Part shown: one piece after another, positions 6,736 through 61,216 of the stretch | Position numbering within the stretch: position 1 is the stretch's first letter | How the letters are laid out: the number at the start of each line of letters is the position of its first letter | Assembly: GCA_013298775.1 (NCBI GenBank) | Contig: JAAFIV010000012.1 | Coordinates: 62,001 to 126,000 of the forward strand | Reading direction: 5' to 3' | Length of the DNA: 64,000 nucleotides | Origin: Ignavibacteria bacterium | GTDB taxonomy: Bacteria; Bacteroidota; Ignavibacteria; Kapaibacteriales; UBA4661 | Notes under the pieces: generated by a model | Told to the model about the DNA's origin: nothing | Databases searched by the model: none | What the model saw: the letters and a program-made list of their open reading frames with translations, nothing else | Position numbers and translations under genes: made by a program

Positions 6736-8562
6736 TTAGTGCTTTGCTACGGTTTCTTGTTCTACGTGCGCTGGACGAATCCATTGCGGCAAGTAATCAC
6801 GCTTTGATTCGGGCGAAGCATACTCGTATGGTCCGCGATAAACAGTGATGTCGCGGTCGAAGTTGCCGTGTCCCGGATGAGCTGGAGCAGCCCACTCAAG
6901 CGTGTTTGCACGCCAAGGATTGCGCGGTGCAGGGCGACCATATTTCACACTCCAAAGGAGGTTGAAAATAAGAATCAACTGCGAGAAACCAAGAAGAATA
7001 GCGAAAATCGTAATAAACTGGTTAATCGGCTGGAAAGGCTTCAAAAACTCGTACACATATGGGTCGTGAATACGGCGCATATGACCACCAACGCCAATCA
7101 TGTGCATTGGGAAGAAGCAAAGATTGAAGGTGATGAATGTCAAAACGAAGTGGAATTTGCCCATTGATTCGTTGTACATTTTGCCGAACATTTTCGGGAA
7201 CCAGTAGTAAACACCAGCGAAAATGCCGAAGAGCGCACCACCAAAAAGAACGTAGTGAATGTGCGCCACGATGAAGTAGGTATCGTGAATGTACACGTCA
7301 ATCGGACCAATCGCCATGAATACACCGCTCAAGCCACCGCAAACAAACGTGCTGATAAATCCAAGCGCGTTTAAGTTCGGCGTGGTGAAGTGAATATCAC
7401 CTCTCCAAACTGTACCAAGCCAGTTGAAGATTTTGATAGACGACGGAACCGCGATTACAATCGTAGAGAGCATGAAGGTTGTACCAAGAAGCGGACTCAT
7501 ACCAGAAAGGAACATATGATGTCCCCAAACCACGAAGCCCAAGAATGCGATTGCCATGATAGCAAAGACCATCGCTTTGTAACCGTAAATCGGTTTACGA
7601 GCAAAGGTAGCAAGTACGTCGGAAACAACGCCCATCACTGGCAAAATCATAATGTACACAGCAGGGTGCGAATAGAACCAGAAAAGGTGCTGCCAAAGAA
7701 CTGGCTGACCGCCGCCGCCCGTACCAACATTCGCGCCATTCGGGAACAAGCCGCCGCTTGGTGTCAAAAGATTTTCTGGGATGAAGATACCTGCATGGAA
7801 AACTTGGTCCACAAAAAGGAGAACCGCATCAGCCGCAAGCACGGGTGTACCCAATGTTTGAAGGATAGCCGTGATGAACAATGCCCAAACGGTCATCGGC
7901 ATATCGAACATCCGCATACCTTTTGCGCGTTTGTTGAGAACGGTGGTAACGTAGTTCATACCGCCCAAGATGGAGGAGAATCCCACGAGAAAGACACCCA
8001 TTACCCACAGCGTGTGTCCCATGCCAGAGGCAGAGAGCGGTGGATAGTTTGTCCAGCCCGCAGCAGCCGTACCGCCTTCAACAAAAAATCCTGCCATGAT
8101 GGTCAAACCAGCAATCGGAACGAGCCAGAACGACATCATATTTACAATCGGCATCGCCATATCGTCGGTGCCAATCATAAGCGGAATACAGAAGTTGGCG
8201 AATGCCCCCGTTGCCATTGGGATAATCACGAAGAAAATCATTACCGTAGCGTGCATGGTTACAAGCTGCGTATAAAATCCGGGTTGAATTGCGCCATTTG
8301 AAACAAGTGAATCCGGCAACCATGACCCAATAACAGGAATTGGTTCGCCCGGATATGCAAGCTGCCAGCGAATAAACAATGCAAACGCGCCACCAACAAG
8401 CAAGAAAAACATGGATGTTGTGAGGAACTGCTTTGCAATGGTTTTGTGGTCGGTCGAGAATAAATACTTTCTGATAAACGACGGCTCATGGTGTTCATGA
8501 GCGTGGTCTGCTGCGTGTGCCACAGCATGACCGTGTTCATGGGTGAGAACTGCTGCTTCCAT
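6736..8562 (-). CDS. coxA: Cytochrome c oxidase subunit I, A2-type heme-copper oxidase
   Basis: 608-residue catalytic subunit that reduces O2 to water at the heme a3-CuB centre and pumps protons. Twelve or more helices are expected. Visible marks are the heme ligand region HATVMIFF, the CuB ligands in WFYSHPAVYI and WGHHMFLSGM, and the heme ligands in VAHIHYVLFGG. The D-channel glutamate of A1 enzymes (HPEVY) is replaced by the Tyr-Ser motif YSHPAVY, which defines the A2 subfamily known from the Rhodothermus marinus caa3 oxidase. The N-terminus is His-rich (HEHGHAVAHAADHAHEHH), an unusual tail that could bind metal. Confidence 0.97.
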   Translation of the reverse strand: MEAAVLTHEHGHAVAHAADHAHEHHEPSFIRKYLFSTDHKTIAKQFLTTSMFFLLVGGAFALFIRWQLAYPGEPIPVIGSWLPDSLVSNGAIQPGFYTQLVTMHATVMIFFVIIPMATGAFANFCIPLMIGTDDMAMPIVNMMSFWLVPIAGLTIMAGFFVEGGTAAAGWTNYPPLSASGMGHTLWVMGVFLVGFSSILGGMNYVTTVLNKRAKGMRMFDMPMTVWALFITAILQTLGTPVLAADAVLLFVDQVFHAGIFIPENLLTPSGGLFPNGANVGTGGGGQPVLWQHLFWFYSHPAVYIMILPVMGVVSDVLATFARKPIYGYKAMVFAIMAIAFLGFVVWGHHMFLSGMSPLLGTTFMLSTIVIAVPSSIKIFNWLGTVWRGDIHFTTPNLNALGFISTFVCGGLSGVFMAIGPIDVYIHDTYFIVAHIHYVLFGGALFGIFAGVYYWFPKMFGKMYNESMGKFHFVLTFITFNLCFFPMHMIGVGGHMRRIHDPYVYEFLKPFQPINQFITIFAILLGFSQLILIFNLLWSVKYGRPAPRNPWRANTLEWAAPAHPGHGNFDRDITVYRGPYEYASPESKRDYLPQWIRPAHVEQETVAKH

Positions 8563-16059: not shown

Positions 16060-16070
16060 GTCAAAATTTG

Positions 16071-16235
16071 TAACTAGTCAGGTCTCCCCGTCGGGCGGCT
16101 GTTATCACAAGCGCAGTAGCCGTCCGGCGGGTTCTTCGGCGCGTACTCAATAAAAGCGTCCCGTGTACACCCGCCGGACGGCTACTGTATCTGTGATAAC
16201 AGCCGCCCGACGGGGGAGAGTACCTGACCAGTTAC
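16071..16235. repeat. Palindromic element D between hisG and serA
   Basis: Nested inverted repeats: outer TAACTAGTCAGGT versus ACCTGACCAGTTA, then CTCCCCGTCGGGCGGCTGTT-type arms (16084-16109 with 16192-16217), then CAGTAGCCGTCCGGCGGG (16114-16131) with its reverse (16170-16187). About 165 bp in all, GC-rich, no coding potential. Only one copy in the window. Confidence 0.85.
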
Positions 16236-16241
16236 CAAAAT

Positions 16242-17450
16242 TTAATACAAAATTCGCACACGAATCGTATTGGAAACCCGCTTCAAATCGTCGCAGAGCG
16301 AGTCGTGGTATTCTTTGTCCACGTCGGCAATCACGTAGCCGATGTTCTCATCGGTGCGCAAAAACTGGGAAATGACGTTCACGGAATTTTGTGCGAATAT
16401 CGTGTTGAGCTGCGAAAGTACGCCTGGCACGTTCTTGTGAATATGCAACAAACGGTGCGTATTTTTCACGGCGGGAAGCTGGATGCGCGGGAAATTCACA
16501 GCGGAAAAGGTGCTGCCAGCAAGCATATACTCGGCAAGTTTGCTGGAAACAAATTCACCGATATTATTTTGCGCTTCCTCCGTGCTACCACCGATATGCG
16601 GCGTGAGAAGGACGTTTGGCATATTTTGGAATGGCGAAGCAAAGGTTTTTTCATTGCCCGCAGGTTCTTTCGGAAATACATCCAGAGCAACACCAGCAAT
16701 TCTGCCTGATTCCACGTGTTTGTGCAATGCGTCCAAATCCACAACATGACCGCGACTGAGATTGATAAACATTGCGCCATCTTTCATTTGGGCAAATTCC
16801 TTTTCGCCCACAAGATTCGCATTCTCAGGGCTGCCGTCCACGTGCAGCGTTACTACATCCGCGATGTTCAAAACTTCCTCCATTGAGGACATTTTCACGG
16901 CATTGCCAATGCTGAGTTTGTCCACGCTGTCGTAGTAATAGACCCGCATTCCAAGCCCTTCCGCCAGCACCGATACTTGCGAGCCGATATTACCAAAGCC
17001 GATAATACCAAGATTTTTCCCACGCACTTCCTTCGCGCCAACAGCAGATTTTATCCACTCGCCCGCATGAAGGCTTGAAATCTTGTTGTACAGTCCGCGC
17101 ATGAGGAAAATAATGTGTCCAATCACCATTTCCGCGACCGAGCGCGTGTTGCTGTATGGCGCGTTGAAGGCAGGAATACCACGCAAGGCAGCCGCGTCGA
17201 GGTCAATTTGATTTGTGCCAATGCAATATGCACCGATTGCCTGCAAGTGCGGCGCATTCTCCAGAACCCTCTCCGTTACGTGCGTCCGAGAGCGAATGCC
17301 GAGCAGCGTCACGCCGTCGAGAGCTTTGATAAGGTCGTCTTCGTCGAGTCCCTGTTTGCGTGTTTCAATTTCAACGGTTTCCCCAAACGGTGTTTTGTGA
17401 AGAACTTCAACGCCAGAAGTGTGAATGTTTTCGAGAAGGAGAATTTTCAT
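16242..17450 (-). CDS. serA: D-3-phosphoglycerate dehydrogenase
   Basis: 402-residue NAD-dependent enzyme that oxidises 3-phosphoglycerate in the first step of serine synthesis. The NAD-binding motif GIIGFGNIGSQ lies near residue 148. The catalytic Arg is in NLSRGHVVD, Glu in DVFPKEP and His in TPHIGGSTEE. The last ~75 residues form an ACT domain (HIHKNVPGVLSQ), which gives serine feedback in related enzymes. It has the E. coli-like medium form without an intervening domain. Divergent from pfkA across a 336-base gap. Confidence 0.96.
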   Translation of the reverse strand: MKILLLENIHTSGVEVLHKTPFGETVEIETRKQGLDEDDLIKALDGVTLLGIRSRTHVTERVLENAPHLQAIGAYCIGTNQIDLDAAALRGIPAFNAPYSNTRSVAEMVIGHIIFLMRGLYNKISSLHAGEWIKSAVGAKEVRGKNLGIIGFGNIGSQVSVLAEGLGMRVYYYDSVDKLSIGNAVKMSSMEEVLNIADVVTLHVDGSPENANLVGEKEFAQMKDGAMFINLSRGHVVDLDALHKHVESGRIAGVALDVFPKEPAGNEKTFASPFQNMPNVLLTPHIGGSTEEAQNNIGEFVSSKLAEYMLAGSTFSAVNFPRIQLPAVKNTHRLLHIHKNVPGVLSQLNTIFAQNSVNVISQFLRTDENIGYVIADVDKEYHDSLCDDLKRVSNTIRVRILY

Positions 17451-18911: not shown

Positions 18912-19090
18912 ACGTGAGGCTCTCGCTTCTCAAGCGAGGGTCTCACTTCCGCGCAAACGCACGCTTAATTTTCGGGTAGAAGCGAGACCCTCACGAGGAA
19001 GTGAGAGCCTCGCGTAGCACGTTTCGTGAGTTGCAGCATGAAAAGCGAGACCCTCACTGGGAAGTGAGAGCCTCGCGTAGCACGTTTCGC
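18912..19090. repeat. Family C repeat, copy C2 with internal duplication
   Basis: Starts with GTGAGGCTCTCGCTTC and contains two direct copies of a ~46-base block (about 18980-19025 and 19042-19087), each ending in GAGAGCCTCGCGTAGCACGT. It fills most of the gap between pfkA and the next gene. Confidence 0.85.
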
Positions 19091-24965: not shown

Positions 24966-25026
24966 GCTTGGATAGCTGACAAAATCTAGCCTTTTAGCAC
25001 TTCCAACGTAAATACCTGATTCTTAC

Positions 25027-25185
25027 ATTATGCAGTGATAATGAACGTTGTGAGTAAGGAACGCGGATTTGAGGACCGAGAGGATTTGGAAGATGGAGAA
25101 AAGTCCTCAACATCCTGATAGTCTGGGCTTCATCCGCGTTCCAATAATCGTTGCTTATTCTCGTTGCTTATTCCAAGAATCATGG
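25027..25185. repeat. Family G palindromic element, copy G1
   Basis: Core with perfect 11-bp inverted ends GGAACGCGGAT (25059-25069) and ATCCGCGTTCC (25133-25143). Flanks on both sides (GTGATAATGAA on the left, ATAATCGTTGCT and GAATCATG on the right) are shared with copy G2, so the whole ~160 bases behave as one unit. It occupies the 320-base gap upstream of batB. Confidence 0.88.
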
Positions 25186-25228
25186 ACTCAAAACTCAGCA
25201 CATAAAACTCAACACTAGTATTTTTCGC

Positions 25229-50941: not shown

Positions 50942-51002
50942 AACACGAGCTTTCAGGCGATGCTCACGTTTCAGCCTTCATATTTTAGTACGTGACTCTT
51001 GA

Positions 51003-51150
51003 ATTACGTAGTGATAATGAAAGATGTCGGTAAGGAACGCGGATTTGAGGACTGAAGAGGATGTTGAGGATGGAGCAAAGTCCTCAACATCCTGATAGTC
51101 TGGGCTTCATCCGCGTTCCAAATAATCGTTGCTCAATTCGAGAATCATGT
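51003..51150. repeat. Family G palindromic element, copy G2
   Basis: Core with inverted ends GGAACGCGGAT and ATCCGCGTTCC, and the same outer flanks as copy G1 (GTGATAATGAA left, AATAATCGTTGCT and GAATCATG right). It lies between convergent genes: the permease (plus) and the ketoacid dehydrogenase subunit (minus). Confidence 0.9.
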
Positions 51151-51169
51151 ATTTAGCCCTGATATTTTC

Positions 51170-60235: not shown

Positions 60236-60685
60236 ATGCGGCTTCAGGCTGTTTTGCTCTTGGGAGTATTGTTGATACTTTCTTCGTGTGAAGATGGCGG
60301 AAGTATTTTTGACCCACCACCCCAAAATATCCCGACGGGGGAATATCGCGGTCAGTACACGCTTTTGCGCTCTAACCCAAGCGATACCAGCATTCGACGC
60401 GGCGTGTACACGGAAGTTTCGATGGCATTTGTTGTCAATTCTACTACCCGCACGTACCGTATTACGCCGACTGACACGAGCTTTCTTCCAGCGAGCGAAG
60501 GCGCATACACGCTTCGTTACGGGCGTATTACCCTTCGAGACCGCTCGCAGCGCACCTTCCGCGACCCCTCGCTCGTCCTCAACGGCGAATTTATCTACAC
60601 CTTCGACGGTAATAGCTTGGTGTTAAGCCAAAAAGACAGTGTACGCCGCCGCGAGTACGGCTTAATTATGATGCGCGTCTTTTGA
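60236..60685 (+). CDS. Putative lipoprotein of unknown function
   Basis: 149 residues from the ATG at 60236. A lipobox LILSSC with Cys near residue 18 indicates lipid attachment in the envelope. The mature part has a beta-rich pattern (YRGQYTLLRSNPSDTS, EFIYTFDGNSLVLSQ) and resembles small beta-barrel or lipocalin-like lipoproteins of the phylum, but no family is assigned. Confidence 0.75.
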   Translation: MRLQAVLLLGVLLILSSCEDGGSIFDPPPQNIPTGEYRGQYTLLRSNPSDTSIRRGVYTEVSMAFVVNSTTRTYRITPTDTSFLPASEGAYTLRYGRITLRDRSQRTFRDPSLVLNGEFIYTFDGNSLVLSQKDSVRRREYGLIMMRVF

Positions 60686-60824
60686 CGAAACGGAATTGGT
60701 CGGGTCATTCGTCAAGAAACGCGGATGAAGCCCAGACTTTCAGGATTTTGAGGACTTTTTTCGGTGCTACATGATTTCAGTTGGAAATCAAGCGCAGTAT
60801 TGGATTGAAAAGGTAATAAAATAA

Positions 60825-60966
60825 CTCACCTTACGCACACCCTCACATTTGCCCTCACCCCTCGCTGCGCGAGACCCTCTCCCAGAGGGCGAGGGTTGAT
60901 GAGAACTAGGTCTGAAGCCCTCTCCCCCTGGGAGAGGGTTGGGTGAGGGTGGTATGCGTAAGGTGA
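60825..60966. repeat. Family B element, copy B4
   Basis: CTCACCTTACGCAC at 60825 and GCGTAAGGTGA ending 60966 are the inverted ends; the inside has CCCTCACCCCTCGCTGCGCG and CTCCCCCTGGGAGAGGGTTG. Same layout as B2 and B3. Confidence 0.92.
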
Positions 60967-60978
60967 AAAAATGACACT

Positions 60979-61057
60979 AGTGGCTTGAGACTTCTTGTCT
61001 GTGTTGTTCGCCTGAACCCCGCACCAACACGCACAGACAAGAATGTCTGTGCCACTA
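60979..61057. repeat. Family A palindromic element, copy A9
   Basis: Right arm CACAGACAAGAATGTCTGTG plus CCACTA (61032-61057) is intact; left arm TAGTGGCTTGAGACTTCTTG is degenerate. Conserved spacer with CGCCTGAACCCCGCACCAAC. It directly follows B4. Confidence 0.85.
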
Positions 61058-61216
61058 ATGGGGTCAAGGACTCTTTCCAACTACAATCATTTCGTACCTT
61101 TTTTTCTTTGTTTTTTTTATCCTCAACATTCTCTGAATCCTCAAATCCGCGTTCCCAAATCAAGACCTCACCAACTACGATACAACATTTAAAACACAAC
61201 TTTTTCAATTTTCTAA

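Follow-up and report, generated by a model that had tools for sequence, protein, structure and literature searches.

Three small mobile elements, one inside another, upstream of eno in an Ignavibacteria genome

What fills the 546-bp spacer between a small ORF (ending at 60685) and eno (61232)? Positions refer to the window, the whole 64,000-nucleotide stretch of Ignavibacteria DNA that was analysed. The initial annotation saw here a palindrome of repeat family G, also present as copies G1 and G2, whose centre was replaced by an element of family B (B4) and one of family A (A9). We find that the site upstream of eno is three small mobile elements, one inside another: M-G, H-A and B. Window positions 60692-61178 are very probably the products of three successive transpositions.

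Layers of the composite

The features of the locus, and the two further copies of the G core, are as follows.

60692..61178, no strand assigned: outer element M-G, a miniature inverted-repeat element, interrupted; joined flanks match intact M-G; absent in relative G005
60684..60691, no strand assigned: presumed 8-bp duplication of the target site of M, left-hand copy GACGAAAC
61179-61186: right-hand copy of this presumed duplication, GATACAAC
60716..60762, no strand assigned: left half of the G core, reaching the H border
61107..61155, no strand assigned: right half of the G core, starting after the second copy of the H duplication
60763..61098, plus strand: H-A, an ISL3-type miniature element that sits centrally in M-G and is itself split by B; 19 copies aligned
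60979..61056, plus strand: hairpin A (A9), internal cargo of H
60825..60967, plus strand: element B (B4), lying next to A in the AT-rich linker of H
50989..51151, minus strand: G2, a K-G element in which other ends enclose the same core; flanked on each side by the 5-bp duplication TTTAG
25013..25186, minus strand: G1, likewise a K-G element, its core enclosed by K ends; no duplication is evident

Both ends of the G core had been placed at 60718-61155 in reverse orientation. This holds; 60718-60758 (95%) and 61119-61155 (89%) match G2, and the inverted repeats are I8-I10. B4 and A9 do lie between them, at the coordinates first given (60825-60967 and 60979-61056). However, the centre was not replaced. 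The core is complete, with hardly any lost, and is split at its T-rich centre; a further 62 and 42 bp are arms of element H. Removal of the insert and one duplication copy leaves an M-G of 143 bp, with a continuous 137-bp match to intact M-G (84.7%, E 6e-39). This joined-flank match is far beyond chance. Hence, the two G halves are one interrupted element.

M-G elements have the ends GTAACTGGTCAGGTC...GACCTGACCAGTTAC flanking the G core. At the composite, the end sequences are GGAATTGGTCGGGTC (60692) and GACCTCACCAACTAC (61178). With the left 79 bases as query, 18 other places in the source assembly (G000, 5.19 Mb) reached the outer arm (40 scored of 113 candidates). Duplications of 8 bp, with at most one mismatch, flank 6 of 17 M-G copies compared with 0 of 272 mismatched-flank controls. 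For this count, 4 of 21 copies were dropped because their ends were too diverged (the composite itself, L161, L163 and L167). The duplication is weak at the composite, where 5 of 8 bases are alike. Hence, insertion of M at this site is argued from the family pattern and one relative. The same vehicle occurs elsewhere in the window around another core.

16070..16235, no strand assigned: another M element, with a different hairpin core, CGTCGGGCGG...; inverted repeat I7; perfect 8-bp duplication CAAAATTT (16062-16069 / 16236-16243)

The relative is G005, the closest that we compared. Its enolase is 99% identical to that of G000, and the same two genes are only 57 bp apart. This is the empty site that the initial annotation had suggested seeking. 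The G005 spacer can be aligned as far as the outer borders of M. G005 was the sole relative aligning on both sides of the spacer. A search with a gene adjoining the locus led to RDXM01000125.1, from a metagenome-assembled Candidatus Kapaibacterium sp. (PH2015_12D_48_15). At 8 other loci compared by BLAST (L003-L010), the inserted spacer was unmatched except for A-like hairpins in L004 and stretches of at most 17 bases. A Pfam search of the ORF ending at 60685 gave no match.

The middle element, H-A, is a 336-bp unit at the locus with arms of its own (60763-60824 and 61057-61098), which belong to neither B nor A. It is bordered by CTTTTTTC (60755-60762) and TTTTTTTC (61099-61106), alike at 7 of 8 positions. 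Across 23 loci examined, 19 H elements had both ends recognised (18 in G000, composite included, and 1 in G005). In every one of the 19, A occupies the same position, which contradicts A9 as a separate insertion; that assignment arose because H had been missed. With four loci dropped (L174, L181, L185, L189), 8-bp duplications with at most one mismatch were found at 12 of 19 H-A copies but only 1 of 342 mismatched-flank controls. A B-free H-A lies in G005 (C102:120180-120377) within a perfect duplication, CTTTCACG.

The innermost element, B4, is flanked by AAAATAA (60818-60824) and AAAATGA (60968-60974), 6 of 7 bases alike. Of the short target duplications that the initial annotation had proposed to look for at the B4 and A9 borders, one is thus present at B4 and another at the borders of H, which holds A9. 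Once B4 is cut out, the sequence on its two sides aligns with intact H-A for 151 bp (89.4%). B elements end in the inverted repeats CTCACCTTACGCA...TGCGTAAGGTGAG. Duplications of 7 bp, with at most one mismatch, occur at 25 of 30 copies compared with 31 of 870 mismatched-flank controls; these are the best 30 of 40 loci scored, from 224 candidates in G000, and none was dropped. By its inverted-repeat ends and fixed-length target duplication, B is classed as a putative MITE. A second B-bearing H-A occurs at G000:C18:30600-31700 (L187, L208). There, B has another insertion point, the opposite orientation and the duplication GTTAAAAA.

Affinities of H, M and hairpin A

H elements are short (about 183 bp), and the 18 G000 copies with both ends contain no transposase gene. 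The H ends, GGTACTAAATGATTTCAGTTGGAAA, are nearly identical to those of a 1175-bp element, GGTTCTAAATGATTTCAGTTGGAAA, in G001, another species of the genus. The latter encodes an ISL3 transposase (PF01610, 1.2e-41; NF033550, 1.9e-65, 221 bits against a cut-off of 180). In a search of six genomes, matches to this transposase were confined to G001 and, as stop-broken pieces, G007; none was found in G000, G005, G004 or G006. An ISL3-type transposon with an 8-bp target duplication has been described (PMC9782665). Judged by shared ends, 8-bp duplications, short length, many copies and lack of a transposase gene, H is classed as an ISL3-derived MITE.

M is probably of IS66 type. Its ends start GTAA (GTAACTGGTCAGGTC) and it has 8-bp duplications. 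IS66 is described as having GTAAGCG ends and an 8-bp duplication (PMC11946415). Hence, duplication length agrees, but only the first four end bases do. G002 contigs starting about 125 bases inside such an M-type element encode a fragment. For a 35-residue piece, 28 plasmid records gave matches, and 6 of the 10 listed carry an IS66 transposase annotation there; these matches are weak (E 0.09 to 2), and the best one (E 0.02) has no annotated feature. HMM searches of the short IS66-like fragments against Pfam and NCBIfam gave no match. The assignment thus draws on the GTAA ends, the 8-bp duplications and the weakly matching fragment.

Hairpin A consists of two small hairpins, CACAGACATTCTTGTCTGTG and CACAGACAAGAATGTCTGTG, that form an inverted doublet, and it is present in high copy number. 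In these respects it is like REPINs (PMC3116915). REP hairpins have a conserved GTAG-type tag alongside (PMC3733652). Beside A, most of the copies listed have AGTGGCACAG and only some have GGTAGCACAG, so a conserved GTAG-type tag is not general. In G005, a RAYT-like gene is bracketed by A copies, an arrangement that resembles REPIN-RAYT pairs. It scores over the cut-off for Y1_Tnp, and 74.9 bits against a cut-off of 80 for REP_Tyr_transpos. Two Y1_Tnp genes in G000, L202 (G000:C1:198447-198791) and L204 (G000:C8:8052-8396), are flanked by other hairpins, not A. Because of these genes and the tag, we describe A as resembling REPINs and do not claim membership; it may work like one. A also differs from the described REPINs in lying inside ISL3-type ends in all 19 H-A copies, and any role of a RAYT is putative.

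Three further observations concern these hairpins. At L203 (G005:C139, ~7101-7331, minus), a RAYT-like Y1 domain (residues 501-577) lies in frame within a 950-residue RecG ORF. The A hairpins bracketing it are read in frame as AQTFLSV, and RecG models match both sides. The hairpins beside L204 resemble a family at window positions 18980, 19043 and 62621. A wide spread of core A, supposed to extend over many phyla, was rejected for this phylum; the exact 22-mer occurred in only 2 of the 296 phylum genomes sampled, both of this genus.

Order of insertion and alternative readings

Joined flanks restore both an intact M-G and an intact H-A. Hence, successive insertion of palindromic elements with G first, as originally proposed, stands. 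The remainder of that order, B and A after G, is revised: A came within H, giving M-G, H-A, B. In the explanation that we favour, M, with the G hairpin core as its interior, would have entered the spacer between the small ORF and eno. H, already carrying hairpin A, would then have entered the T-rich centre of M-G, generating an 8-bp duplication. Finally, B would have landed next to A, in the AT-rich linker of H, and duplicated 7 bp of target. None of M-G, H-A or B encodes a transposase. Each would have been moved in trans by an end-recognising transposase, and such enzymes probably made the insertions. We hold the three-step explanation with high confidence. Identity to consensus drops outwards, from 98% for B (within its own six-member subfamily) to 91% for H-A and 87% for M-G, with B cut out by exact coordinates. 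Measured against the consensus of the 30 best copies, B reaches only 90.8%, since its subfamily, which is young, differs from the other copies. Possibly, H already contained B when it entered M-G.

The nesting might instead have formed elsewhere and been imported, with M-G[H-A] or M-G[H-A[B]] moving as one composite. Consistent with this, H-A also sits centrally in another M-G, at G000:C18:5701-6012, the G with a single insert that the initial annotation had hoped to find in relatives; with H-A taken out, 140 bp align with M-G (83%). However, this copy is without B, and its local duplications and insertion point differ from those at the composite (the two points being 0.44-0.50 and 0.50-0.56 of M). 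The two H-A copies also fall in different clades. The group of the C18 copy excludes the composite copy with an ultrafast bootstrap of 95, in a tree where automatic B removal left B remnants in two rows (composite and L187). As its H belongs to another clade, the C18 nesting arose independently. On clade and insertion point we rejected movement of M-G[H-A] as a unit, and import of the composite as a whole is very unlikely. Could the long spacer be ancestral, its layers old, and G005 the genome that lost it? One relative alone aligns on both sides and the outer duplication is poor, as such a loss would allow. Yet the outer borders fall at the ends of a repeat family that shows clean 8-bp duplications in its other copies, and G005 aligns right up to these borders. 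We consider loss in G005 improbable; the nesting order is unaffected either way.

That the segment is one long functional hairpin, a regulatory RNA or cruciform whose parts co-evolved, would fit its predicted DNA folding (z -8.5, more stable than all 100 shuffles). Such folding is accounted for by the palindromic parts. Every layer belongs to an independent repeat family, with copies elsewhere that lack the other layers, and the whole composite is not seen upstream of eno in G005. Two Rfam matches over A were both far below the gathering score, and no family reached it. A promoter or terminator role was rejected, as the composite contained no such pattern; a terminator-like site at 60635-60650 lies outside it and is no better than shuffles. 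We give the functional hairpin hardly any credence. The same applies to mis-assembly, in which short repeats joined unrelated pieces. The assembly does consist of 95 contigs with many short repeats. However, the locus is interior to a 132,642-bp contig. Exact ends with near-matching duplications at two nested levels are unexpected from mis-joining, and the same genome holds two comparable nestings (C18 and C2).

At the C2 nesting (L173, C2:87653-88004), H-A again lies between M ends, which here enclose another hairpin; the M duplication agrees at 6 of 8 bases. This case falls outside our joined-flank library, which contained only G-core M elements. Other joined-flank cases spanning library elements numbered 2 of 33 for K-G and 0 of 17 for M-G. 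Across the three nestings, H inserted at 0.44-0.50, 0.50-0.56 and 0.55-0.60 of M length. By chance, 0.3 of 19 H insertions would be expected in M (P ~0.004), a post hoc estimate with an incomplete H census, since the H search omitted the composite itself from its matches. The estimate assumes 74 M elements (forward matches), each 145 bp long, and takes 12% of the genome as non-coding on the basis of ORFs. Likewise, 2 of 30 B copies lie in H (P ~0.013, post hoc). With only 3 of the 18 G000 H-A copies found in M elements, H has at most a preference for M. These figures are suggestive only that centres of hairpin elements attract insertions.

Other nestings were encountered. At L087 (G000:C11:88800-90400), a K-G element lies within another K-G-like element; L058 is a weaker case. 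At L246 (G005:C84:32100-32540), an M element is interrupted by an A-like hairpin unit with TAGGACTTTCGCAAA-type ends and CATTT on both sides.

Hairpin cores and element ends

The initial annotation treated G1, G2 and the composite as one family, G. Only the core is shared. K-G elements have ends like TACATGATTCTTG and 5-bp duplications, rather than the 8 bp of M-G. These were found at 20 of 33 copies compared with 204 of 1056 mismatched-flank controls, one copy being taken per locus and 4 of 37 dropped (L073, L080, L081, L083); the G search of G000 scored 40 of 127 candidates. The K-G and M-G consensus cores differ at 3 of 85 aligned bases (96% identical), and their T-rich centre has 11 gap positions. 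The shared core has the exact edges GGAACGCGG and CCGCGTTCC. Similarity is high in the core (z 16.3) and stops at the flanks (z -1.3 and -1.0); hence, the ends are unrelated. Because the core in the composite rides another vehicle than in G1 and G2, 'family G' is a shared core and not a single mobile unit.

Conversely, M ends frame several cores. In a biased sample of 12 M loci in G000, five contain the G core, five the CGTCGGGCGG hairpin and one each two others, with duplications of at least 7/8 at 11 of the 12. M elements of G005, G002 and G009 have such duplications in 19 of 20 cases. Their interiors include a GGACGCAGATGAAGATG hairpin common to the G005 copies and at least two other hairpins among the G002 copies. 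In G004, G006 and G007, H ends frame other interiors; 3 of these 8 elements have perfect duplications and 5 have at most 4/8. Different hairpins thus occur within the same ends and the same hairpin within different ends. Hairpin cores and the transposon ends that frame them thus resemble modules that can be exchanged. The M end 14-mer occurs in 8 of 296 phylum genomes, six of which have a single match, as a reversed control also gives. The G-core 21-mer, with one mismatch allowed, occurs in 1 of 296, G000.

We also observed A within yet another end-set. This element (G005:C102:12500-12690) has TACCATACAAAA-type ends and an 11-bp duplication, AGGAATGATGC, and G000:C4:129252-129292 is a clean empty site.

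The elements described here are like bacterial MITEs (PMC10969869) in being short, lacking a transposase gene and having inverted-repeat ends, duplications and many copies. Bacterial MITEs share ends with full-length insertion sequences, as found here for H. The present case differs in having at least four hairpin cores between one end-set in one genome, one core between two unrelated end-sets, and three elements nested at one site. REP dimers regularly lie within longer palindromes in three bacteria, A. variabilis, T. roseum and H. neapolitanus (PMC3733652); unlike here, section 7 of that account gives no source insertion sequence, target duplications or core exchange. Insertion sequences are known to target REP elements, for example IS1111 into QMITE2 (PMC3733652, PMC10969869). 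Insertion into palindromic repeats is common to both situations, but here the inserted elements are themselves miniature. The consulted portion of the MITE review (PMC10969869) contains neither 'nested' nor 'ISL3'. Titles and abstract openings in the open-licence literature mention no nested MITEs in the phylum and no hairpin-core exchange between bacterial MITE ends, which is not proof of novelty.

The locus is a well-resolved example of a known process. Nesting of this kind is a known event; the interchange of cores and ends is the part worth following. Tentatively, and with some doubt, we suggest that the A and G cores could be discrete modules passing between end-sets of different insertion sequence families, with the centres of hairpin elements as landing sites. 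REPIN-like hairpins might then spread both by their own route and as cargo of several insertion sequence transposases. As the locus shows, several distinct transposons can be concealed in a repeat 'family' that is recognised by its common hairpin core. Should this hold generally, ordinary insertion sequences may carry many intergenic palindrome families as exchangeable cargo, and how REP-like hairpins spread could be tested by counting core and end combinations.
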